Assembly (NCBI GenBank): GCA_020629175.1
Contig: JAHDDU010000002.1
Span: forward strand, 27,692-91,691
Origin: Flavimaricola sp.
Lineage (GTDB): Bacteria > Pseudomonadota > Alphaproteobacteria > Rhodobacterales > Rhodobacteraceae
DNA length: 64,000 bases
Direction of reading: 5' to 3'
Shown here: piece after piece, positions 38,878 to 56,618 of the stretch
How positions within the stretch are numbered: the stretch's first letter is position 1
Layout of the letters: every line of letters starts with the position of its first letter
Notes under the pieces: model-generated
The model's database searches: none
What the model was told of the DNA's origin: nothing
Seen by the model: the letters and a program-made list of their open reading frames with translations, nothing else
Translations under genes and position numbers: made by a program

Positions 38878-38913
38878 TTGACACTCTTGCCGGTGCGGGT
38901 CAAAACACCCGCA
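38878..38913 (+). promoter_or_regulatory. Promoter-like TTGACA and inverted repeat before scoA
   Basis: TTGACA at 38878-38883 is followed by the perfect inverted repeat TGCGGGT (38894-38900) and ACCCGCA (38907-38913), ending 22 bp before the scoA start. The repeat has no T-run, so an operator is more likely than a topA terminator. Confidence 0.4.
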
Positions 38914-38934
38914 TCAGCAGCGAGGGAGTGTGTG

Positions 38935-39633
38935 ATGAAAAAAGTCTATGGATCTGCAGCCGAAGCATTGGACGGATTGCTCCATGATGGCATGCTGATT
39001 GCCGCCGGTGGCTTTGGCCTGTGCGGTATTCCGGAACTCCTGCTGAACGCGATCAAAGAGGCCGGCACCAAGGACCTGACATTCGCCTCCAACAACGCGG
39101 GCGTCGATGATTTTGGCATCGGTATTCTCCTGCAGACAAAGCAAGTCAAAAAGATGATCTCGTCCTACGTGGGCGAAAATGCCGAGTTTATGCGGCAGTA
39201 TCTTTCCGGTGAGCTTGAGCTCGAATTCAATCCGCAGGGCACGTTGGCCGAGCGTATGCGCGCGGCAGGTTGTGGTATCCCGGGGTTCTACACCAAGACC
39301 GGCGTGGGCACTGTGATCGCAGAGGGCAAAGACCACAAAGACTTCAATGGTGAGACCTACATCATGGAAGAAGGCATCTTTGCCGATCTGTCCATCGTCA
39401 AGGCCTGGAAGGCCGACGCAACTGGCAACCTGATCTTCCGCAAGACTGCACGCAACTTTAACCCGCCCGCCGCGATGTGCGGCAAGGTCTGCGTCGTTGA
39501 GGTCGAAGAGATCGTCGAAACCGGCAGCCTTGATCCCGACAGCATCCACCTGCCCGGCATATATGTGCACCGCATCATCCAGGGCGAGCACGAAAAGCGG
39601 ATCGAGCAGCGGACGACGCGCCCAGCCGCATAA
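38935..39633 (+). CDS. scoA: 3-oxoacid CoA-transferase subunit A
   Basis: 232 residues from the ATG at 38935 (GAGGGAG site). This is the alpha subunit of succinyl-CoA:3-ketoacid CoA-transferase, which activates acetoacetate and related acids. The diagnostic GGFGLCGIPELLLNAI motif is near the N-terminus and NNAGVDDFGIG, GAN-like loops and CGKVCVVEVEEIVE follow. The beta subunit gene, normally a few bases downstream, starts only at 42939 because a 3.2-kb gene lies between. Confidence 0.93.
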   Translation: MKKVYGSAAEALDGLLHDGMLIAAGGFGLCGIPELLLNAIKEAGTKDLTFASNNAGVDDFGIGILLQTKQVKKMISSYVGENAEFMRQYLSGELELEFNPQGTLAERMRAAGCGIPGFYTKTGVGTVIAEGKDHKDFNGETYIMEEGIFADLSIVKAWKADATGNLIFRKTARNFNPPAAMCGKVCVVEVEEIVETGSLDPDSIHLPGIYVHRIIQGEHEKRIEQRTTRPAA

Positions 39634-39686: not shown

Positions 39687-42600
39687 ATGTCTACTATTCG
39701 TTTCATGTTGAAACGCCTTGGATTGACCGGTCTGCGCGCTGCTGTGTTCCTTTGGTGCATGACGCACAATGCCACAGCGGAGGACGACGCGATGCAAACG
39801 ACAACGGTGACCCCGAGTTTTGTTGACGCCAATACGATCCAACTGCGGTTTGAGCTCGGCCATATCATTGACGCTGTACAAACGACGACGATCCCAGAGG
39901 GTGGCAACGTCGATCCCGACAGCGGTTGGATCTGGAATGACGGATGGGTCGGGCGCGTCCAGCTGAGTGGTGACGCCTATATGCCGCTCGACACATATCA
40001 GTCCTCCCCCATTGAGGACTTGTTTGACGCGCCGGTTCCTGAGAGTGGGACGCGCGCCGCTGCAATCGACAACGCAGCGCTTTGGACGATCACCGTCAAC
40101 GGCGCACCTGTCGCGCTGGAGGACATCTCGCGCAAATCTCACATCCTTGACAGCGCCACTGTTGGTTGGGGCGTCTACGATTTTCGCACCCTGCAAAACG
40201 TCTTTCTCGATCTCGACGCGCCCCTTACTGCGGGGGACGTTATCGAAATCTCGTTTGCCGACCCAGACTTTGCGTCGATCACTGTGACCTATGCCCCACG
40301 CGAAGTGATCTCAGAGGCGATCCATGTGAACCTCACGGGCTACGACCCGGACGACATCTCAAAAACAGCCTTCCTCAGCAGCTGGAACGGGTGGTCCGTG
40401 GCCGAACAGGCCGGACAGCCGCAAACATACGAGGGCCCCCTCACCTATCAGGTGATCAACGAAGATACCGGCACGGTAGCCGCCACGGGCCAGACAACGC
40501 TGGGCGCCGGGATTAACCAGACGACAGATTTTGAGCTGAACTTTGCGCTCACCGATGTCTGGGAGATCGACTTTTCAGATGTGACGACCGAAGGGGATTA
40601 TTACATCGTGGTCGAGGGAGTTGGCCGCTCCCAGACCTTTTCGATTTCTGATGAGGTTTGGAGCGACGTGTTTGAGACGTCCTTCTCCGGGTTCTACCAC
40701 CAACGTTCCGGCATTGCGCTGGAGAGTGAGTACACCGATTGGGTGCGAGGCCGGTCGCTTCACCCCGAAGATGGCAATGTCATCGTCTATGCAACAACGC
40801 TGCCAATTACAGATACTGACGAAAGCTATGGCGACGGCAAGCCCGATCAGTTCGGGCCACTGGTCGCGGCAGCAACAAGCGAGGTGCTGCCCGATGCCTG
40901 GGGCGGCTGGCACGACGCGGGCGATTGGGACCGGCGCACGCAGCACATCGAAGCCTCTCGCAAGTTGATGGACTTGGTAGAGATGGCCCCGGACTGGGCC
41001 GAAAGCTTTGATGCACAAATTCCCGAGAACACAAACGGCATCCCCGACATCCTCGATGAAGCGATTTGGAACATGGACTTTTTTGCCCGGCTCCAGACCG
41101 CTGACGGTGGCGTGCGTGGCGGCATTGAGGGCGATGACTACCGTGGCTACGGTGCAAATTCCGCCGAGGAAGAGCATATCCTCTACGCCTATGCCCCCGA
41201 TACTTGGACGACATGGGAGTTTGCCGCGGCTGCGGCCAAGCTCTCACGCCTTCTAGAAAAGTACGATGCAGACGCGGCCGCTGTGTGGCTTGAGCGTGCC
41301 GAGCGCGCGATGGATTGGGCCGAGGCGCGAGTACCTGCGGACATCGACATCACCCAGCAAACATCGCGCAACCTCGCGGCAGCCGAGCTATATGCGACGA
41401 CGGAGGACCCGGACTGGCACAACCTGTTCCTGCAAACCTCCTCTTACGCCGACCCAAATCGCGAGTTGGCGTGGAATGAGTGGCAATACGAGGCGGCAAT
41501 AACCTATTCCAGGCTTGATCCCGCTTTGACCAAAGCCGATGTCGCCGCCCGCGCTTTTGAAGGTGTCCAAGGACAGGCAGACTTCCTGATTGATCAAGGT
41601 ATGCAAAGCGGTTTTGGCGCAATCATTGATCCTTATGCACCCTACGGTTGGGGGATCACGGCATCGCAGCCATTTAATGCCGCGACGTTCATGGTTGCGA
41701 TGCACCATTTGACCGGAGAGGACGTCTACCTTGATGCGATCCTGAGCGACGTCCAGTACGGCCTCGGCGCGAACCCGTCGAACATGGTCTACATGACGGG
41801 TGTTGAGGGCGTCCGCTCGCCCGAGATCACCCTCAATGCTGACGCCGACAGCTTGCACGGGGGGACGCCGCCCCCTGGGATCACGATCTACGGCGATTAT
41901 GGCACGCACGACTATGGAGTGCACCCAGGTCAAGGGGCAGTGTGGAACACGATTTTCCCGGATCCGTACCAGACGCCCGTGCATGAGAGCCATAACGGCT
42001 ATTACCTCTTTGTGCCGTCCACCGAATACACCGTCCAACAAGGTATCGCCGATATGACCCTTGTAACCGGGTATCTGGCGTCGCTTGGTGAGGCAGAGGC
42101 ACCGAAAGGCAAACTGGAGGCCGGCAAAGCCACAGTTCATCAGACCAGCCGGGACAAATGGACCCAAGTCACCTTTGACGAGCCCATCGAGGATGCGGTT
42201 GTTGTTGCAGGCCCTGTCACTTTGCGCGGCGGCCAGTCCTTGACCGTGAATGTGCGCAACGTGACCGACAGTGGTTTTGAGTTGCAGGTGGCTGAATGGG
42301 AGTTCCTCGACGGATTCCACGTCCCAGAAATCATCAGTTGGGTAGCGGGCACAGCCGGCAATCACACGCTGGATGATGGCACACAGATCAGCCTAGGCAG
42401 CACGGCGCCCGGTGTGACCGGCAGCGTAAATTTGACCGGCTTTGATGAGACGCCGCTTGTCTTTGGGCAGGTCAACGGATCAAACCTACCTCCGATGGCA
42501 GACAGGCTGCATAGCGTGAGTGCAGATGGCTTCGACTTTACTCTACAAGCCGAAGAGGCGAACAGCGGCAGCGAAGTTGCAGCAAACCTATCCTGGATCG

Positions 42601-42869
42601 CGGTCGAGAATACCGGACAATCATCTTCGGGTATCTTCTCTGCCAACCATCAATTCGCGGACACCTCAGTCACGTCAGATTTGGCTTTCCTTGCGGACAT
42701 GCAAACACTCAACGGCGGCGACACCGCTGGGTTGCGCATCAGAATAGGACCGGACGATCTGATCGACCTCAAAATTCTTGAGGAACGCTCTCGCGATCAA
42801 GAGCTTTGGCATCTGAACGAAGACATTGCCTTCTGGTCCCTGCAGACCGGTACATACGATCTTTATTGA
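39687..42869 (+). CDS. Secreted GH9-type glycoside hydrolase (endoglucanase-like) with three C-terminal repeats
   Basis: 1060 residues. An N-terminal signal ends near ATA (residue 31); the start could also be the ATG at 39705. An all-beta region of unknown family (about 40-205) precedes a cellulase N-terminal Ig-like domain (about 212-320, HVNLTGYDPD). The GH9 barrel follows (about 326-800) with the catalytic aspartates Asp410 and Asp413 in WHDAGDWD, the LGANPSNMVYMTG loop and the candidate acid Glu780 in STEYTVQQ. Three repeats of about 70 residues end the protein (about 825-905, 911-975, 985-1060), probably carbohydrate-binding or adhesive. Exact substrate (cellulose, mixed-linkage glucan or other) unknown. 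It sits inside the split scoA/scoB pair. Confidence 0.85.
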   Translation: MSTIRFMLKRLGLTGLRAAVFLWCMTHNATAEDDAMQTTTVTPSFVDANTIQLRFELGHIIDAVQTTTIPEGGNVDPDSGWIWNDGWVGRVQLSGDAYMPLDTYQSSPIEDLFDAPVPESGTRAAAIDNAALWTITVNGAPVALEDISRKSHILDSATVGWGVYDFRTLQNVFLDLDAPLTAGDVIEISFADPDFASITVTYAPREVISEAIHVNLTGYDPDDISKTAFLSSWNGWSVAEQAGQPQTYEGPLTYQVINEDTGTVAATGQTTLGAGINQTTDFELNFALTDVWEIDFSDVTTEGDYYIVVEGVGRSQTFSISDEVWSDVFETSFSGFYHQRSGIALESEYTDWVRGRSLHPEDGNVIVYATTLPITDTDESYGDGKPDQFGPLVAAATSEVLPDAWGGWHDAGDWDRRTQHIEASRKLMDLVEMAPDWAESFDAQIPENTNGIPDILDEAIWNMDFFARLQTADGGVRGGIEGDDYRGYGANSAEEEHILYAYAPDTWTTWEFAAAAAKLSRLLEKYDADAAAVWLERAERAMDWAEARVPADIDITQQTSRNLAAAELYATTEDPDWHNLFLQTSSYADPNRELAWNEWQYEAAITYSRLDPALTKADVAARAFEGVQGQADFLIDQGMQSGFGAIIDPYAPYGWGITASQPFNAATFMVAMHHLTGEDVYLDAILSDVQYGLGANPSNMVYMTGVEGVRSPEITLNADADSLHGGTPPPGITIYGDYGTHDYGVHPGQGAVWNTIFPDPYQTPVHESHNGYYLFVPSTEYTVQQGIADMTLVTGYLASLGEAEAPKGKLEAGKATVHQTSRDKWTQVTFDEPIEDAVVVAGPVTLRGGQSLTVNVRNVTDSGFELQVAEWEFLDGFHVPEIISWVAGTAGNHTLDDGTQISLGSTAPGVTGSVNLTGFDETPLVFGQVNGSNLPPMADRLHSVSADGFDFTLQAEEANSGSEVAANLSWIAVENTGQSSSGIFSANHQFADTSVTSDLAFLADMQTLNGGDTAGLRIRIGPDDLIDLKILEERSRDQELWHLNEDIAFWSLQTGTYDLY

Positions 42870-42938
42870 GTGTGAGGGCTCTTGCAGAGCCCCGGACCGT
42901 TGGCTATCCAACCCACAACGAAGTTGGGGAGAGACGAG

Positions 42939-43565
42939 ATGCCTTGGGATCGTGATCAGATGGCCGCCCGCGCCGCGCAAGAGTTGCAGGACGGCATGTA
43001 CGTGAACCTTGGGATCGGCATCCCGACGCTTGTGTCAAACCACATCCCCGAAGGGGTCGAAGTTACGCTGCAATCCGAGAACGGCATGCTTGGCATGGGC
43101 CCCTTCCCTGTTGAGGGGACAGAGGACGCTGACCTGATCAACGCGGGCAAGCAAACCATCACAGAACTGCCGCAGACAGCCTATTTTGACAGCGCACAAT
43201 CCTTTGGCATGATCCGGGGCGGCAAGATTGCCATGGCAATCCTTGGCGCGATGGAAGTGGCGGAGAACGGCGATCTGGCCAATTGGATGATCCCGGGCAA
43301 GCTGGTCAAAGGCATGGGTGGTGCGATGGACCTTGTGGCAGGCGTTGGGCGCGTGGTCGTCGTGATGGATCACACAAACAAGCACGGCGACAGCAAGCTG
43401 TTGCGGGAATGCACGCTGCCCCTGACCGGGAAAAGCGTGGTGGACCGGATCATCACGAACCTTGGCGTGCTCGACGTGGTCGACGGCGGACTCAGCATCG
43501 TGGAAACGGCAGATGGCGTGACAGAGGACGAACTGCGCGCCGCGACCGAAGCCACGATCGTTTAA
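42939..43565 (+). CDS. scoB: 3-oxoacid CoA-transferase subunit B
   Basis: 208 residues from the ATG at 42939 (GGGGAGAG site). Beta subunit carrying the catalytic glutamate, Glu47 in [10 protein letters not shown], which forms the glutamyl-CoA intermediate. N-terminal [12 protein letters not shown] and [11 protein letters not shown] are typical. It pairs with the scoA product encoded 3.3 kb upstream on the same strand. Two bp separate its stop from the convergent transglycosylase gene. Confidence 0.94.
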
Positions 43566-44446: not shown

Positions 44447-44801
44447 AATCTTCGCCTGCCTTATGTTTTTTGTTGTCAGCGTTATCTCAACAATAGCGCG
44501 ACACCGCCAGACACTGTGTAAATTTTTGGAAAACATGCTGAATATTTGACACGTTTCAGACCCTCAAATGGGAGGCGAAGATACAAAAAATGAATAATTA
44601 AACGTTCAATTTCAATATGTTAATATTTTCTTTACGAAAAAATCGCCGCGCTGCAAATAAGTGCCGATCCGGCCAAACCATAGCCCGATTCCAACGTCAA
44701 AACATTCTCATCCACAGCGGGGATCGAGCCAACTAGAGGCCGGCCCGAAATGATCCGCCGGGGATGTCTGTTAATGAAGCGAATACTCTGAGGAGAGAAA
44801 C
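44447..44801. other. AT-rich intergenic region upstream of the pilin array
   Basis: About 355 bp without a gene. The stretch at about 44590-44645 is strongly A/T-rich in an otherwise GC-rich window and probably contains the flp promoter or a binding site for a global regulator. A TTGACA at 44546-44551 has no partner -10 element. A TTGTTG...CAACAA inverted repeat lies near 44471-44494. Confidence 0.45.
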
Positions 44802-44992
44802 ATGCTTAACTACATCAAGACTTTTGCTGCCGACGAAGACGGCGCCGTGACCGTTGACTGGGTTGTTCTGACAGCTGCTATCGTTGGTCTGGGCATCGCC
44901 GTTCTGACATCCGTTTCTAACGGTGCAGAGACAATGGCTGCCAACATCGAGACAGAGCTGAACACTGCTGTTCCAGACATCGTCTTCTAAGA
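44778..44992 (+). repeat. 215-bp direct repeat, copy 1 (contains flp pilin 1)
   Basis: Identical base for base to 45790-46004 (offset 1012). It covers the ribosome-binding region, the whole pilin gene and two bases after the stop. A 16-bp hairpin sequence six bases further on (TCCTCCGCTCGGAGGA) is also shared. Confidence 0.95.
44802..44990 (+). CDS. flp1: Flp-type pilin, copy 1
   Basis: 62 residues. A short leader ends at the predicted prepilin peptidase site DEDG|AVTVDW, followed by one hydrophobic helix (VVLTAAIVGLGIAVL) and a small polar tail ending in PDIVF. The canonical Flp Glu5-Tyr6 pair is Asp-Trp here. It would be the structural subunit of the Tad pilus. AGGAGAG lies 6 nt before the ATG. 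The protein and the DNA are identical to those of the pilin at 45814. Confidence 0.95.
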   Translation: MLNYIKTFAADEDGAVTVDWVVLTAAIVGLGIAVLTSVSNGAETMAANIETELNTAVPDIVF

Positions 44993-44996
44993 TTGC

Positions 44997-45058
44997 TCCT
45001 CCGCTCGGAGGATCAGTTTGGGGCCGTGCCTTACCCCTGGGCACGGCCCCTTTTCTTT
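44997..45058 (+). terminator. Terminator after pilin copy 1
   Basis: A small hairpin (TCCTCCG/CGGAGGA) is followed by a strong one: GGGGCCGTGCC (45020-45030) pairs with GGCACGGCCCC (45040-45050), then TTTTCTTT. Confidence 0.9.
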
Positions 45059-45271
45059 GCCCCTTACCCTTTTTCCGGACATTCATCTTCCACGCTGCCG
45101 CAGTTTCGCGGACGGCGTGCTTTGCGTTGCTGAAATATTGCTTCAAATCCGCCTAAAAGCTGCCGCATTTGGGCCGTCAAATGTCCACATCCATACCAGG
45201 TGGGGGCAGCGATGTTTCGCAAGTTTGCTTGGTAGTTGGATGAGTATGCTGCCCAACGAAAGGTAAAGAAA

Positions 45272-45460
45272 ATGAAGAACTATATTCAGAATTTCATGGC
45301 GAACGAAGACGGCGCGGTCACAGTTGACTGGGTCGTGCTTACGGCTGCGGTTGTAGGTTTAGGTATTGCTGTCTTGTCTGCTGTCTCAAACGGAGCAGAG
45401 ACAATGGCTGCCAACATCGAGGCCGAACTCAACACAGCCGTCCCCGACATCGTATTCTAA
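45272..45460 (+). CDS. flp2: Flp-type pilin, copy 2
   Basis: 62 residues from the ATG at 45272 (AAAGG about 8 nt upstream). Its sequence closely follows pilins 1 and 3 with differences in the leader (MKNYIQNFMANEDG) and a few helix positions (VVGLGIAVLSAV), including the same AVTVDW processing site and PDIVF end. The DNA differs much more than the protein, with different third-codon bases, so this copy diverged longer ago than the 1/3 pair. Confidence 0.95.
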   Translation: MKNYIQNFMANEDGAVTVDWVVLTAAVVGLGIAVLSAVSNGAETMAANIEAELNTAVPDIVF

Positions 45461-45483
45461 ACACGACACTGGATCTGGCATAG

Positions 45484-45522
45484 GTGCCGTCCCGACAGAT
45501 GATCGGGGCGGCACTTTTCTTT
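45484..45522 (+). terminator. Terminator after pilin copy 2
   Basis: GTGCCGTCCCGA (45484-45495) pairs with TCGGGGCGGCAC (45503-45514), one G-T wobble, followed by TTTTCTTTT. Confidence 0.9.
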
Positions 45523-45789
45523 TGGGGATACCAAATCAGCGATTCTGCCAGGCGCATCGACGCAAGACACGGGAATCCTGCAAATTTCTGGAAAGGCATC
45601 AATCTTCACCTCTCCGAATAGACTGTTTCCAAACCCGATCAAACAAGCTGATTTGGCACAAAAAAAGAGGGAAAAAGGTCCGAGTTGGCAATCTTTCCGC
45701 CGCTTTTGCGCCCCATTCACCATCCATTAATATCCCATCGCCGCAGCAAGCAGTGGTCATGAAGACGACGGTGGATGCGGCTAAAACTG

Positions 45790-46004
45790 AGCGAATACTC
45801 TGAGGAGAGAAACATGCTTAACTACATCAAGACTTTTGCTGCCGACGAAGACGGCGCCGTGACCGTTGACTGGGTTGTTCTGACAGCTGCTATCGTTGGT
45901 CTGGGCATCGCCGTTCTGACATCCGTTTCTAACGGTGCAGAGACAATGGCTGCCAACATCGAGACAGAGCTGAACACTGCTGTTCCAGACATCGTCTTCT
46001 AAGA
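45790..46004 (+). repeat. 215-bp direct repeat, copy 2 (contains flp pilin 3)
   Basis: Identical to 44778-44992. The sequences upstream and downstream differ, so the homologous unit is sharply bounded by the gene and its ribosome-binding region. Confidence 0.95.
45814..46002 (+). CDS. flp3: Flp-type pilin, copy 3 (identical to copy 1)
   Basis: 62 residues, identical to the pilin at 44802 in protein and DNA, including the AGGAGAG ribosome-binding site. The upstream DNA is unrelated to that of copy 1, so its transcription may differ. It has its own terminator downstream. Confidence 0.95.
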   Translation: MLNYIKTFAADEDGAVTVDWVVLTAAIVGLGIAVLTSVSNGAETMAANIETELNTAVPDIVF

Positions 46005-46008
46005 CACT

Positions 46009-46060
46009 TCCTCCGCTCGGAGGATTTGGGGGCCGCATCTTCGGATGCGGCCCTTCTTTT
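46009..46060 (+). terminator. Terminator after pilin copy 3
   Basis: The shared small hairpin TCCTCCG/CGGAGGA is followed by GGGCCGCATC (46030-46039), a TTCG tetraloop, GATGCGGCCC (46044-46053) and TTCTTTT. Confidence 0.92.
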
Positions 46061-46194
46061 ATGAAAAAACAGCTGAATTTGGAGCGAATAAACCTCGTGA
46101 TTGATCCAATGCAGCCGAATTGTTGCCTCAATCGAAGAGCACAAAGGTCAGAACCACTTGCGGCCAGCACGGCCTGAAATATCGGAGAATGAAG

Positions 46195-46389
46195 ATGAAG
46201 TGTCTGCTTAAAGAGTTCCACCAATCAGAGGATGGGGCTGTAACTGTCGACTGGATGCTGCTGACGGCAGCGCTGCTTACCCTGGGGATCGTAGTCGGTT
46301 ACGCTGTTTCTGATGGCGCTGAAACGATGGCTCAGAACACGGGCAATGAATTGGCAACAGCAGACATTCCAGAAGTCTCTTTCCAATAA
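46195..46389 (+). CDS. Divergent Flp-type pilin, copy 4
   Basis: 64 residues from the ATG at 46195, placed 8 nt after GGAG; an ATG two codons earlier is possible. It shares EDGAVTVDW at the processing site and the GAETMA segment with the other three, but the helix (MLLTAALLTLGIVVGYAV) and the C-terminus (TADIPEVSFQ) have diverged. It lies 31 bp before cpaB with no terminator between, unlike the other pilins, so it may be a minor pilin co-expressed with the assembly proteins. Confidence 0.88.
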   Translation: MKCLLKEFHQSEDGAVTVDWMLLTAALLTLGIVVGYAVSDGAETMAQNTGNELATADIPEVSFQ

Positions 46390-46420: not shown

Positions 46421-47281
46421 ATGCGCGCAGTATTCGGATTGGTACTTATCGTAGGTCTTGGGCTGGCCGGCTTCGCCGTCTACATGGTGCAAGGCTACTT
46501 CGAACAGCAAGGACAACAGCTTCGCGCGGCCGAGGCCGCACGCCAGCAGGCTGTCCCAACGGTTGCTGTATATGCAGTCAATCGCACAATTGAATTTGGT
46601 GAAGCTCTCACCATGGATGATGTGGAAATCATTCGCTATGCAGAGCCACACCTCCCCGATGGCGTGTTTCAGGACGAAGTAGCCCTCTTCCCACGTGGCG
46701 AAGATCTTCCCCGCTACGTTCTCCGCCAGATGGAGCCAAATGAGCCTGTCCTCGCCACCAAGGTGACCGAGCCTGGTGTCGCCGCGACGATCACTTCCTT
46801 GATCCAGCCGGGCCTCCGCGCTTTCACAATCGAAGTTGACGCAACAACAGGTGTGTCAGGTTTCTTGCGCCCCGGTGACCGTGTTGACGTCTACTGGACT
46901 GGCCAAGTTGCACAGGGCCTTGCCGGAAGCAACGACGTCACACAGCTGATTGAGCCAGGTCTACGCCTCGTCGCTGTTGACCAATCCGCGGATACCGCCC
47001 GTGCTGGCGCCAGCATTGCTCGCACAGTGACCGTGGAAGTGACGCCGCTCCAGGTTGGCAAGCTGACACAAGCACAGGCTACTGGTGATCTTTCCTTGTC
47101 CCTCGTCGGCCATGCCGATGACCTGACGACCGAAGCAATCGAAATGACGCAGTCGACACTGCTCGGCATCGTTGCACCGGAAATCGTCGTCGAAGAAGAG
47201 GTCGAAGAAGAGCAGATCTGCACAATTCGCAGACTTGCCGGCGGTCAGGTCATCGAAGACATCATCCCCTGTTCGAACTGA
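46421..47281 (+). CDS. cpaB: Flp pilus assembly protein CpaB (RcpC)
   Basis: 286 residues. One N-terminal membrane helix (about 4-24) anchors a periplasmic part with an SAF-like domain (about 45-115; VPTVAVYAVNRTIEFGEALT) followed by the CpaB/RcpC region (RPGDRVDVYWTG). CpaB supports the outer-membrane secretin. The tail is acidic (EEEVEEEQ) and ends with two cysteines about 17 residues apart. A terminator follows. Confidence 0.92.
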   Translation: MRAVFGLVLIVGLGLAGFAVYMVQGYFEQQGQQLRAAEAARQQAVPTVAVYAVNRTIEFGEALTMDDVEIIRYAEPHLPDGVFQDEVALFPRGEDLPRYVLRQMEPNEPVLATKVTEPGVAATITSLIQPGLRAFTIEVDATTGVSGFLRPGDRVDVYWTGQVAQGLAGSNDVTQLIEPGLRLVAVDQSADTARAGASIARTVTVEVTPLQVGKLTQAQATGDLSLSLVGHADDLTTEAIEMTQSTLLGIVAPEIVVEEEVEEEQICTIRRLAGGQVIEDIIPCSN

Positions 47282-47524: not shown

Positions 47525-48943
47525 ATGACATATAAGAACTATCTAGGGGCCGCGTTTGTCGGCCTTGCTATGAGTCTATCCGGACTCCCAAGCACAGTCG
47601 CGGCAGAAACGCTGCGCGTGGTCACAGGCGCGCCGTCATCGGCGTTGCAAGTGCCAATGAACCGGGCGGTTGTCGTTGAAAGCGACAGCCCATTTGCCCA
47701 GATTTCCATCGCGAACCCGGGAATTGCGGACATCTCGTCCCTTTCGGACCGGACGATCTATGTCCTTGGTAAGGAACCGGGCCGCACAACGCTGACAATT
47801 CTGGCCGCCGACGGCAGCCTGATCAGCAACGTCGAAATTCGCGTGACACCAGATGTTGCAGAATTCCGCGAGCGTCTGGCGCAGATCCTTCCTGGTGAGC
47901 AAATCGAAGTACGGACAGCCAATGACGGTATCGTTCTGTCAGGCACCGTCAGCTCAATCGCGCGTCTTGATCGCGCATTGGAACTGGCCGAGCGCTACGC
48001 ACCAGAGCGTGTTTCCAACCTGATGACTGTTGGTGGAACCCAGCAAGTCATGCTTCGCGTTCAGTTTGCTGAGATGCAACGCTCAGTCAGCCAGGCGCTT
48101 TCATCATCTGTCGCGCTAAACGGAAACCCGGTTGACGGGGATCTCGGGCTTGTTGGTGAGACGGGCACTTGGCTTTCCGGCTCGAACGGTCTGGCTGAAC
48201 GCTCCATCACGTTTGGGGACGAAGCAGAAGGCGGTCTCGCCATTGGCTTCAACGCCGGTGCCCTTGAAATCGGTATTCTGCTTGAAGCATTGGAAAGCCG
48301 AGGCGTCGTGCGAACACTTGCCGAACCAAGCCTCACGGCCCTTTCCGGTCAGGAAGCGACGTTCCTTGCCGGTGGTGAGTACCCCGTTCCCGGAAGCTCG
48401 GGCGATGGCGGCGTTACAATTGAATACAAGCCGTTCGGTGTTGAATTGAACTTCATTCCGCGTGTGGTCGATGGCGACATCATCAATCTGGAGATGATCG
48501 CAGCTGTTTCGTCTATCGACCCTTCCAACGGTATTGTGTCAGACGGCATCCAAATCGATGCTTTCCGTCGGCGCGAAACCTCCACAACGGTCGAGATGCG
48601 TGACGGCGAAAGCTTTGCAATTGCTGGACTTTTGCAGGATGACTTCCGCGATGTTATCGGCCAGGTTCCGTGGCTTGGGGACGTGCCCGTTCTGGGTGCC
48701 CTCTTCCGTTCGGCAGAGTTTCAGCGGCAGCAAACAGAGCTGGTTATCATCGTCACCCCACATCTCGTGACACCAACACGCGGTGATGCGTACGCTTTGC
48801 CAACGGACCGTGTGCGCCCACCAACAGCGCGCGATCTGTTCTTGTTTGGTCGCGTGTCGGCAGATGATGCACCTCAAACCGGCGGTGCCGGCGAAGTGGC
48901 CCGTCAGGACTTTAGTGGGTCCTACGGCTACGTCCTGGACTAG
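47525..48943 (+). CDS. cpaC: Tad secretin CpaC (RcpA)
   Basis: 472 residues. A signal peptide (to about TVAAE, residue 29) precedes the pilus-specific N-domain (PMNRAVVVESDSPFAQISIA, 20 residues) and a BON-like region, then the type II/III secretin domain with VPGSSGDGG and the conserved VPWLGDVPVLGALFRS. It forms the outer-membrane pore for the pilus. It starts the second transcript of the locus, after a 244-bp gap with a terminator. Confidence 0.94.
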   Translation: MTYKNYLGAAFVGLAMSLSGLPSTVAAETLRVVTGAPSSALQVPMNRAVVVESDSPFAQISIANPGIADISSLSDRTIYVLGKEPGRTTLTILAADGSLISNVEIRVTPDVAEFRERLAQILPGEQIEVRTANDGIVLSGTVSSIARLDRALELAERYAPERVSNLMTVGGTQQVMLRVQFAEMQRSVSQALSSSVALNGNPVDGDLGLVGETGTWLSGSNGLAERSITFGDEAEGGLAIGFNAGALEIGILLEALESRGVVRTLAEPSLTALSGQEATFLAGGEYPVPGSSGDGGVTIEYKPFGVELNFIPRVVDGDIINLEMIAAVSSIDPSNGIVSDGIQIDAFRRRETSTTVEMRDGESFAIAGLLQDDFRDVIGQVPWLGDVPVLGALFRSAEFQRQQTELVIIVTPHLVTPTRGDAYALPTDRVRPPTARDLFLFGRVSADDAPQTGGAGEVARQDFSGSYGYVLD

Positions 48944-49847: not shown

Positions 49848-51086
49848 ATGAGCATGAACGCTGCACTCCAACCAGACCCACAGCCGATTCTGGCGTGCAC
49901 AATCAGTCGCGATGTACAGATCTTTGATCTGCTGATTGAAGATATGGAAATGGCCCTCGGTGAGAACTGGGGCGACCTCAACTTCAACGATGCCCTCGCC
50001 TTCCTTGAACAGCCCGATGCCGCCGAACTCCAGTTCGTCGCGATTGCGTTGGACCAGGACGACGAAAATGATCTCTCGCTCATCGTTAGCATCATCAACG
50101 CGGCCAAAACCAAAGATATCAAGGTCATCCTCATAACCGAGGATGTCAGCCCGGCATCGCTGCACACATTGTTGCGCGAAGGTGGCAACGAGTTTGTCCC
50201 CTACCCCCTTCCCGAGGGGGAGCTGGCACGCGCCATTGAACGTGTCCAAAAACCCGTTGAAGAAGCGCCAGTTGCCGAAGAAATCCGAAACACCCTCAAG
50301 CCAACCGGTGACCGGTCTGGCGTCGTGATCCCTGTCCACGGCATGGCGGGCGGCACCGGAGCCACGACACTTGCCGTCAACCTCGCATGGGAACTGGCCA
50401 ATGTTGAGAAAGAAGATCCGCCACGGGTCTGTCTGATCGACCTCGATCTTCAGTTTGGCGCGACGTCGACCTACCTCGATCTGCCCCGGCGCGAAACGAT
50501 CCTAGAGCTGCTGTCCGACACAGAAAGCATGGACAGCGAAAGTTTCATGCAGGCTTTGTTGAGCTACAACCAAAAGCTTCAGGTTTTCACATCGCCCACT
50601 GACATGATCCCAATGGATCTTGTGACCACCGAGGATATTGACCGCCTGATCGAAATGGCACGGGTCAACTTTGACTACGTTGTCATCGATATGCCGTCGA
50701 CGATGGTGGAATGGTCCGAGACTGTGCTGAATGCGGCTCACGTCTACTTTGCAACGCTCGAGCTCGATATGCGCTCGGCCCAGAACACTCTGCGTCTGAA
50801 GCGTGCGTTGCAGTCCGAAGGTCTTGCCATCGAAAAGCTGCGCTTTGTCCTGAACCGCGCGCCTGGCTTCACCGATCTGAACGGCAAAAGCCGGGTAAAG
50901 CGTCTGGCCGAGAGCCTTGGCGTCTCAATCGAAGTGCAACTGCCTGATGGCGGCAAGCCTGTGGCCCAAAACGCAGACCACGGTGTGCCTTTGGCAGACG
51001 GACTACCAAAGAACGGCCTGCGCAAGGAGATCGCAAAGCTCGCGAAATCCGTGCACGAGGTGAATGCTGCTGAAGCAACCGGATAA
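49848..51086 (+). CDS. cpaE: TadZ/CpaE-type ATPase-like localisation protein
   Basis: 412 residues. The N-terminal part (about 12-135) resembles a receiver domain, and the C-terminal part is a MinD/ParA-like domain (about 158-400). The Walker A region reads GMAGGTGATTLAVN: both signature lysines are missing and position 172 is Ala. The switch motif IDLDLQFG and DMPSTM are recognisable. TadZ/CpaE directs the pilus machine to the pole. Its 224-bp upstream gap with a probable terminator suggests its own promoter. Confidence 0.92.
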   Translation: MSMNAALQPDPQPILACTISRDVQIFDLLIEDMEMALGENWGDLNFNDALAFLEQPDAAELQFVAIALDQDDENDLSLIVSIINAAKTKDIKVILITEDVSPASLHTLLREGGNEFVPYPLPEGELARAIERVQKPVEEAPVAEEIRNTLKPTGDRSGVVIPVHGMAGGTGATTLAVNLAWELANVEKEDPPRVCLIDLDLQFGATSTYLDLPRRETILELLSDTESMDSESFMQALLSYNQKLQVFTSPTDMIPMDLVTTEDIDRLIEMARVNFDYVVIDMPSTMVEWSETVLNAAHVYFATLELDMRSAQNTLRLKRALQSEGLAIEKLRFVLNRAPGFTDLNGKSRVKRLAESLGVSIEVQLPDGGKPVAQNADHGVPLADGLPKNGLRKEIAKLAKSVHEVNAAEATG

Positions 51087-51098
51087 GGGGACGGTTTC

Positions 51099-52529
51099 AT
51101 GTTTTCAAAGTACAAAAAGACCGAAAAGGCGCCCGCAACCGCGGCCAACGTGACACCAATCACAGCGGCGCCCGCGGCCGAGCCCAAGAAAACGCTCATC
51201 CAGCCGCCCAAGCCGAAGCCGGCGCAGGCGGCTCCGATGGATAAAGAGAAGAAGCGAAAGGAGCGCCTGTCCGAGATCAAGCTCGATCTGCATAAGGCGC
51301 TGCTAGACAACCTGAACCTGTCCGCGCTCGAGGCAGCGTCCGAGCAGGATTTGCGTCAGGAAATCAATGCGATCGCACAAGAAACGCTCGAAGAGATGGG
51401 CGTTGTTCTCAACCGGGACGAGCGCCAGACGCTCAGCCAAGATCTCTACGATGAAGTGAAGGGCCTCGGCCCTCTTGAAACGTTGCTGAAAGATGAGTCG
51501 GTCAACGATATTCTTGTGAACGGCCCGCAGCAAATCTTTGTAGAACGCGCCGGTAAGCTCGAAATCACCGATGTGACCTTCAAAGACGAACGCCACTTGC
51601 TGCGGATCATCGACAAAATCGTGTCCGCCGTTGGCCGTCGCGTCGATGAAAGCAACCCTTATGTTGACGCCCGTTTGGGCGATGGCTCGCGTTTCAACGC
51701 CATGGTTGGACCGATTGCCATCGACGGCAGCCTGGTCTCTATCCGTAAGTTCAAAAAAGACAAGTTGGGCATCGAAGACTTGGTGAAATTCGGGGCCTTT
51801 ACCGAAGAAATGGCTGCATATCTGCAAGCCGCTGTTGCCTGCCGTCTGAACGTCATCGTCTCGGGCGGTACGGGTTCGGGTAAGACGACAACGCTCAACG
51901 CGCTGTCATCTTTCATCGACAACAACGAACGCATCCTGACGATTGAGGATACGGCCGAACTTCAACTCCAGCAAACGCACGTGGGCCGGATGGAAAGCCG
52001 TCCGCCAAACGTTGAAGGCAAGGGCGAGGTTTCGCCTCGCGACTGTTTGAAGAACGCACTGCGTATGCGTCCTGACCGCATCATCGTGGGGGAAACGCGT
52101 GGCGAGGAAGTCATCGACATGTTGCAGGCCATGAACACGGGCCACGACGGCTCCATGACCACAATCCACGCCAACAGCGCGCGCGATGGTGTCAGCCGTC
52201 TGGAAAACATGATCGCGATGGCCGGGATCGAGATGCCATTGAAGGCGGTTCGCAGCCAGATTTCCTCGGCTGTAAACCTCATCGTGCAGGCCTCGCGTCT
52301 GCAAGACGGCTCTCGCCGCATGACTTCGATCACCGAGATCACGGGGATGGAAGGCGAGGTGATCTCGATGCAAGAGGTCTTCCGCTACCAGCGTGTGGGC
52401 CTGACGCCAGACAACAAGATCATCGGCCACTTCACCGCAACGGGCGTGCGCTCGCACTTCTCCGAGCGGTTCCGTCTGTGGGGCTACAATCTGCCTGCCT
52501 CCATCTTTGAACCCTTTGCTGCTGAGTAA
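51099..52529 (+). CDS. cpaF: Tad pilus assembly ATPase CpaF (TadA)
   Basis: 476 residues. Type II/IV secretion ATPase that powers pilus extension. The Walker [11 protein letters not shown] (Lys262), the Asp box [11 protein letters not shown], Walker [15 protein letters not shown] and His box [13 protein letters not shown] are all intact. The N-terminal 60 residues are Ala/Pro/Lys-rich. It starts 12 bp after cpaE and is followed 5 bp later by tadB. Confidence 0.96.
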
Positions 52530-52534
52530 CCATC

Positions 52535-53503
52535 ATGGAATTTGCTGCAGAACCACTGATTTACATCATCGTCTTCGTCGCAGTGCTCGCGCTGGTCGAA
52601 GGCCTTTACCTGACGGTTTTTGGAAAATCCATTAGCCTCAACAGCCGGGTCAACCGCCGGATCGAAATGCTCGACAAATCGGCGGGCCGCGAACAGGTGC
52701 TGGAACAACTCCGCAAGGAGATGACGCAGCACATGAAATCACGCAGCATTCCGCTGTACTCGATCCTCGCCACCAAGGCGCAAAAGGCCAACATCGCCTT
52801 CTCACCTTCGCAGTTGATCATGATCATGGCGCTGCTGTGCCTCGTGGCCTTTGTGGGCCTGACACTTGGCACGGCAACAGACCTTGCCGTTCGGCTGGTC
52901 CTATCCATCGCCATCGGTATTGGAGCCGTTTTTGTCTGGGTCAATAACAAGGCCAAGAAACGCTCGTCGATGATCGAAGAACAGCTGCCCGACGCTGTGG
53001 AACTCATGGTGCGCAGTTTGCGCGTGGGTCACCCCTTTGCCTCTGCCGTGAACATCGTTGCCAAAGAGGTACCAGATCCATTGGGTACCGAAATGGGCGT
53101 GATCGCGGATGAGGCGGCCTATGGTCGTGACATTGGCGAAGCGCTCAAGCACATGGCCGAACGGCTTGATATGCAGGACCTCCGCTTCCTTGCCGTGGCC
53201 GTGACAATCCAGCAAACCGCTGGTGGTAACCTTGCTGAAATTCTTGACGGTCTGTCGAAAGTGATCCGTTCGCGGTTCAAACTGTTCCGCCGGGTTCAGG
53301 CAATCACGGCTGAATCCAAATGGTCCGGTATGTTCCTGTCGATCTTCCCCCTGCTCGCCCTGGTGGCGATCAACGTGATCCAGCCGGGCTACTACGATGA
53401 CGTAAAAGAAACTGACGTCTTCATCCCTGCCTGCCTTGCCGTCGGTGCGTTTCTCGTCGCCAACATCTTTGTCATGCGCTCGCTCGTAGACATCAAAGTT
53501 TGA
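52535..53503 (+). CDS. tadB: Tad inner-membrane protein TadB
   Basis: 322 residues with four to five membrane helices and the T2SS-F-type cytoplasmic domain: LPDAVELMVRSLRVGHPF, LDMQDLRFLAVAVTIQQTAGG. TadB with TadC forms the inner-membrane platform on which CpaF acts. The gap to cpaF is 5 bp and to tadC 9 bp, a compact operon. Confidence 0.94.
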   Translation: MEFAAEPLIYIIVFVAVLALVEGLYLTVFGKSISLNSRVNRRIEMLDKSAGREQVLEQLRKEMTQHMKSRSIPLYSILATKAQKANIAFSPSQLIMIMALLCLVAFVGLTLGTATDLAVRLVLSIAIGIGAVFVWVNNKAKKRSSMIEEQLPDAVELMVRSLRVGHPFASAVNIVAKEVPDPLGTEMGVIADEAAYGRDIGEALKHMAERLDMQDLRFLAVAVTIQQTAGGNLAEILDGLSKVIRSRFKLFRRVQAITAESKWSGMFLSIFPLLALVAINVIQPGYYDDVKETDVFIPACLAVGAFLVANIFVMRSLVDIKV

Positions 53504-56108: not shown

Positions 56109-56618
56109 ATGGACAGCAACACATTACAGGCGCTGGGATTTTTGCCCTTTGTCCTCCCCATCTGCATTTACGTTGCATATTGGGACATGAAAGGGATGAT
56201 CATCCCGAACAAAGCCGTCTATGCGCTCTTTGCAACGTTCGTGGTCATCGGCTTTTTTGTGATGCCGGACACAGCGGACTACCTCTGGCGTTTTGCCCAC
56301 TTTGCCGTTGTTTTGCTGATCGGAATATTGCTGAACGCCGCCCGCCTTTTGGGGGCCGGAGACGCAAAGTTCATGGCTGCGGCTGCACCAATGGTCGCAA
56401 TTTCCGATATTGGCTTTCTTTTCGTTATCTTCTCGGTATGCCTGTTGGCAGGCTACGCTCTTCATCGGATCGCCAAGAAATCCCCACTGCGCAAGCGGTT
56501 CCCCGATTGGAAGAGCTGGGACAGTGGCCGCCGGTTTCCCATGGGCTTTCCGCTTGCACTTACGCTGGTCGCCTATCTCGTCCTGAATATGAACAATGCG
56601 CCGGGTGTGACGGCCTAA
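56109..56618 (+). CDS. cpaA: Prepilin peptidase (TadV/CpaA)
   Basis: 169 residues, the short type without the N-terminal methyltransferase domain. Four to five membrane helices carry the catalytic aspartates Asp26 (YWDMKGMIIPN) and Asp85 in the LGAGDAKFM motif of the A24 aspartic peptidases. It cleaves the Flp pilins and TadE-type pseudopilins. It has its own promoter-like element rather than belonging to the upstream transcript. Confidence 0.93.
   Translation: MDSNTLQALGFLPFVLPICIYVAYWDMKGMIIPNKAVYALFATFVVIGFFVMPDTADYLWRFAHFAVVLLIGILLNAARLLGAGDAKFMAAAAPMVAISDIGFLFVIFSVCLLAGYALHRIAKKSPLRKRFPDWKSWDSGRRFPMGFPLALTLVAYLVLNMNNAPGVTA

Follow-up and report, generated by a model that had tools for sequence, protein, structure and literature searches.

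Identical Flp pilin genes between unrelated flanks in a Rhodobacteraceae tad locus: a likely case of gene conversion

Pilin genes and duplicated bacterial genes offer several described systems in which sequence is exchanged between copies. In the pilE/pilS antigenic variation of Neisseria, one expressed gene acquires variation from silent partial cassettes. Gene conversion has been documented to drive the concerted evolution of bacterial duplicates, tufA/tufB among them (Wang and Chen 2018, PMC6053082); a word search finds no mention of pilin or flp in that paper, and our literature search found no paper linking gene conversion with flp and tad. The tad/flp locus of Aggregatibacter contains flp-1 and flp-2, the latter apparently not expressed (PMC8383342).

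We analysed a stretch of 64,000 nucleotides from a Rhodobacteraceae genome (Flavimaricola sp.; hereafter the window), which carries a complete tad (Flp pilus) locus (Table 1). As in Aggregatibacter, the flp genes come first in a tad assembly locus that also contains rcp genes, tad genes, and a prepilin peptidase; unlike that system, with its flp-1 and flp-2, the window has four pilin genes, three with their own terminators and two identical. Gene conversion between pilin copies, which we infer for the window, would be shared with Neisseria pilE/pilS, except that here complete flp genes would have been made alike: all four copies in the window have a start codon and a stop, and no silent truncated donor cassettes of the pilE/pilS type were found among them. 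The resemblance to tufA/tufB lies in paralogs that are closer within than between species, silent sites included, as seen for Flp pilins in a related genus (that of genome G147); the difference is that flp codes for a 62-aa pilin, and that tandem duplication additionally makes its small local array grow and shrink.

Table 1. Features of the flp array and tad locus in window coordinates.
Feature	Position	Strand	Basis
Structured leader of flp1: hairpin, inner stem GAGCC/GGCCC, and RBS hairpin CTCTGAGGAGAG	44697..44801	+	Covariance model R1
Copy 1 of 215-bp identical block	44778..44992	+	Direct comparison
flp1 pilin gene, 62 aa	44802..44990	+	ORF and comparison
17-bp hairpin, also after flp3	44997..45013	+	Comparison, fold
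Terminator-like hairpin and T run after flp1	45020..45058	+	Fold
flp2 pilin gene	45272..45460	+	Comparison with flp1
27-nt stretch of flp2 identical to flp1/flp3	45395..45421	+	Codon comparison
Terminator-like hairpin and T run after flp2	45483..45523	+	Fold
Copy 2 of 215-bp identical block	45790..46004	+	Direct comparison
flp3 pilin gene, identical to flp1	45814..46002	+	ORF and comparison
Terminator-like hairpin and T-rich stretch after flp3	46029..46060	+	Fold
flp4, diverged pilin-like, without terminator hairpin, read towards cpaB	46195..46389	+	ORF, fold
cpaB/rcpC	46421..47281	+	PF16976, 1e-23
Secretin rcpA/cpaC	47525..48943	+	PF00263, 3e-42
tadZ/cpaE-like ATPase	49848..51086	+	PF13614; name given by position
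tadA/cpaF ATPase	51099..52529	+	PF00437, 8.5e-67
tadB	52535..53503	+	PF19360
Prepilin peptidase, tadV-like	56109..56618	+	PF01478, 5.7e-10

The downstream genes further include one for an OmpA-like protein and additional tad-like genes; upstream lies a lytic transglycosylase encoded on the opposite strand. The pilin proteins score below the Pfam cut-offs for Flp families (best Flp1_like, 12.9 bits against 33.5; DUF4244, 15.9 against 27) and have no match in NCBIfam, so the name Flp pilin is a putative one that draws on position, length, the G-A-V-T-V-D-W motif, and similarity to genes present in most genomes of the family. Each of flp1, flp2, and flp3 is followed by its own strong hairpin and then T-rich sequence, the hairpins differing between copies, whereas folding found no terminator hairpin between flp4 and cpaB; this suggests that each of the first three genes has a short transcript of its own and that the assembly operon begins with flp4. 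The ends of flp3 (45987-46068) and flp1 (44994-45064) show a sub-threshold likeness to the suhB/mmgR RNA family (27.9 and 18.2 bits, cut-off 41), which is probably just that of terminator hairpins. Elsewhere in the window, a 1060-aa ORF (39687-42869) that by eye resembles a GH9-type glycosidase lies between two ORFs resembling CoA-transferase subunits (38878-39633 and 42882-43565). A PDB match to the BP39L lectin was discounted because its score added up seven weak repeats.

An earlier note on this DNA had described three pilin copies, omitting flp4, and had claimed that the first and third are identical over 215 bp, including silent sites and the ribosome-binding region, while the DNA farther out differs. 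Apart from the copy number, which is four, direct comparison of the two window copies bears this out. All 215 of 215 bases agree; the block starts 24 bp ahead of the coding sequence, takes in the ribosome-binding site in the leader and the complete 62-aa gene, and ends 2 bp past the stop. A wider 236-bp frame matches at 232 positions: the block is followed by 4 mismatches and then by 17 more matching bp (TCCTCCGCTCGGAGGAT, 44997-45013 and 46009-46025), which form a small hairpin (TCCTCCGCTCGGAGGA). Except for this hairpin and the start of the terminator (GGGGCCG), the farther flanks are at chance level, with 29% upstream and 21% downstream in ungapped comparison, so that homology ends at the gene edges. 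The two paralogs use the same codon at 62 of 62 positions, an agreement that two independent encodings of 62 residues would reach with a probability of about 1e-20 under pilin codon usage, or 1e-25 under that of the window. The note's further statement that the second pilin encodes nearly the same protein with other codons also stands: flp2 shares 53 of 62 residues with flp1/flp3 (85% protein identity) and uses the same codon for only 24 of these 53, which indicates that other codons are tolerated for pilin residues. Within flp2, nine consecutive codons (27 nt) show no silent change relative to flp1/flp3 (permutation p 0.0017 for a stretch picked after inspection), and this segment may be a short conversion tract of the same kind.

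Comparable patterns were found in the genus of G147, in which eight species carry pilins A, B, and C at corresponding places. Within these genomes, A and B are identical at 158 to 186 of 186 positions, reaching 186/186 in G334 and 185/186 in G147; between these two species, A matches A at 175 and B matches B at 176 of 186, and silent sites of the pilins differ between species in the genus. The flank upstream of A can be aligned between species (134/151), whereas within genomes only 12 and 9 positions of the 26 nt upstream match between A and B. In the tree, A and B of the same species cluster together in five of the eight genomes (G334, G147, G338, G326, and G327), and an AU test on a set that includes the long-branched C copies rejects a single clade of all A copies (p 6.6e-33). 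Positional paralogs in this genus are thus recurrently homogenised by conversion. The pair G337 and G340 shows no recent conversion, with 184 (A-A) and 185 (B-B) identities between genomes against 174 and 173 (A-B) within, implying that conversion events are episodic. In two of the nearest genera with pairs, G412 and G167, A and B agree at 177/189 and 170/189 within the genome, compared with 143-152 between genomes.

The pattern recurs across the family. A survey of flp in Rhodobacteraceae yielded 151 distinct loci, 121 of them with at least two flp genes, and in about 44 of these 121 two of the genes share at least 90% of their nucleotides. By the flank cut-off used, which is rough because unrelated DNA gives about 45-55% in gapped alignment, near-identical pairs have both flanks unlike in 23 distinct loci and one or both flanks above it in 21; a few loci occur in both lists, and the flp1/flp3 pair of the window was itself sorted into the second owing to the hairpin downstream of the coding sequence. 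Clear tandem duplications, whose 430-490-bp units include flanks, are present in L033, L093, L129, and L195, among others. Separately, the pilin gene of L012 (G244) has an internal repeat of the segment GLGIAVLTTVSGGAEDLA, and genomes G188, G013, G210, and G245 have 10-14 Flp-like matches each, many of them off the contig with the main cluster.

We consider it likely, with a probability of roughly 0.77, that flp1 and flp3 are established paralogs, one of which was recently overwritten with the other by gene conversion, and that repeated events of this kind homogenise the copies within genomes. The earlier note had left the choice between recent duplication and gene conversion undivided. Conversion between pre-existing copies is the better supported of the two because identity is confined to the gene, each copy keeps its own flanks and terminator, and homogenisation is seen in a related genus; simple tandem duplication was rejected for flp1/flp3, as it would have copied the flanks, which are at chance level.

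We regard as unlikely a recent duplicative insertion, in which a piece of about 236 bp with flp1 was copied into the spacer between flp2 and flp4 and became flp3. The 215-bp identity would fit such an origin, as would the lack of an outgroup for flp3 and the presence of only three pilins in G167. Yet a gene-sized piece would have had to land beside a ready terminator without bringing its own, the tandem duplications of relatives copy whole units together with their flanks, and the related genus shows the same pattern in positional paralogs common to several species. Weighing against conversion, the array was not found in the two same-genus genomes (in G001, the cpaB match begins only at residue 153), so that the presence of flp3 before the event is presumed, and the spacers between the window copies give no alignment signal to G167. 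The clear tandem duplications elsewhere in the family and the pair G337 and G340 count on the same side. Far less probable is an assembly artefact in which a single copy was placed twice: the genome is a draft of 85 contigs, but both copies lie on a single 172-kb contig, where their flanks differ on either side, and similar pairs occur in other assemblies and related genera, including G340 in two contigs. That codon selection alone, without sequence exchange, keeps flp1 and flp3 identical can practically be set aside, for although major pilins are probably highly expressed and codon bias is expected, flp2 differs in codon at 29 of the 53 shared residues, and the between-species silent differences in the related genus already contradict this reading.

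Under gene conversion, flp1 and flp3 would be established paralogous genes for the major Flp (Tad) pilin, individually equipped with a ribosome-binding site and a terminator. Recombination without exchange of flanks, presumably by a RecA-dependent route, would have overwritten one copy from 24 bp before the start codon to the end of the coding sequence. Repeated conversion, together with tandem duplication and loss, would prevent major pilins from drifting apart inside a genome even as they diverge from species to species, and selection favouring a filament subunit that is uniform or abundant may lie behind the homogenisation. Dosage change or the loss of flp2 by recombination, both raised in the earlier note, may be further consequences. 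The flp1 gene occupies the conserved first-pilin place, with a flank homologous to the first-pilin flanks of G167, G412, G051, and G358, which at first suggested flp1 as the donor; this assignment was dropped, since the bases bordering the block at flp3 are similar to the leader consensus as well.

The leader itself is the more novel by-product of this analysis. About 100 nt upstream of the first flp are common to many Rhodobacteraceae genera, and an alignment of 36 leader sequences contains three helices, the inner stem varying on both sides in many rows. The resulting covariance model scores the leader in the window, a member of its training set, at 84.5 bits and, at E <=0.01, finds matches in roughly half of 81 loci; those whose positions were checked lie just before an flp gene, and in tandem arrays, such as L052/G009, matches precede each copy. 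In L081 (Aliiruegeria haliotis), five matches lie about 460-590 bp apart, the first two preceding flp genes identical over 198 bp. In a second leader set, nearly all of whose rows were unused in model building, 10 of 14 pairs change on both sides (44 cells compared with 14.7 in shuffles); fitting this alignment to the structure biases it towards covariation, but sliding the partners abolishes the signal. Rfam 15 gave no match at gathering score in six loci and none over the window leader even at E 5; the leader is absent from that release, and it may already be described in a 2017 survey of candidate RNAs. Within the window, the full leader belongs to flp1 only, and no leader match was found at flp2 or flp4. 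At flp3, just the ribosome-binding part is present through the shared block, and a full leader was rejected there because a 28.3-bit match disappears once the shared 24 bp are removed. The simplest guess is an element for stability or translation. More specifically, and tentatively, the leader could be an undescribed Rhodobacteraceae cis-acting RNA that controls how stable the major pilin mRNA is or how well it is translated, in which case homogenised genes behind different leaders would yield one pilin under several expression controls.

The flp1/flp3 pair is likely a new case of an already known evolutionary process. Tad genes of Rhodobacteraceae have been linked to colonising algae (PMC8383342). 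The flp array provides a natural system in which to measure recombination between short repeats, and the conserved RNA leader offers a direct way to test what sets pilin output. In Rhodobacteraceae, one Flp pilin copy does not evolve independently of the others: trees built from single flp genes would mislead, and copy number is in flux.
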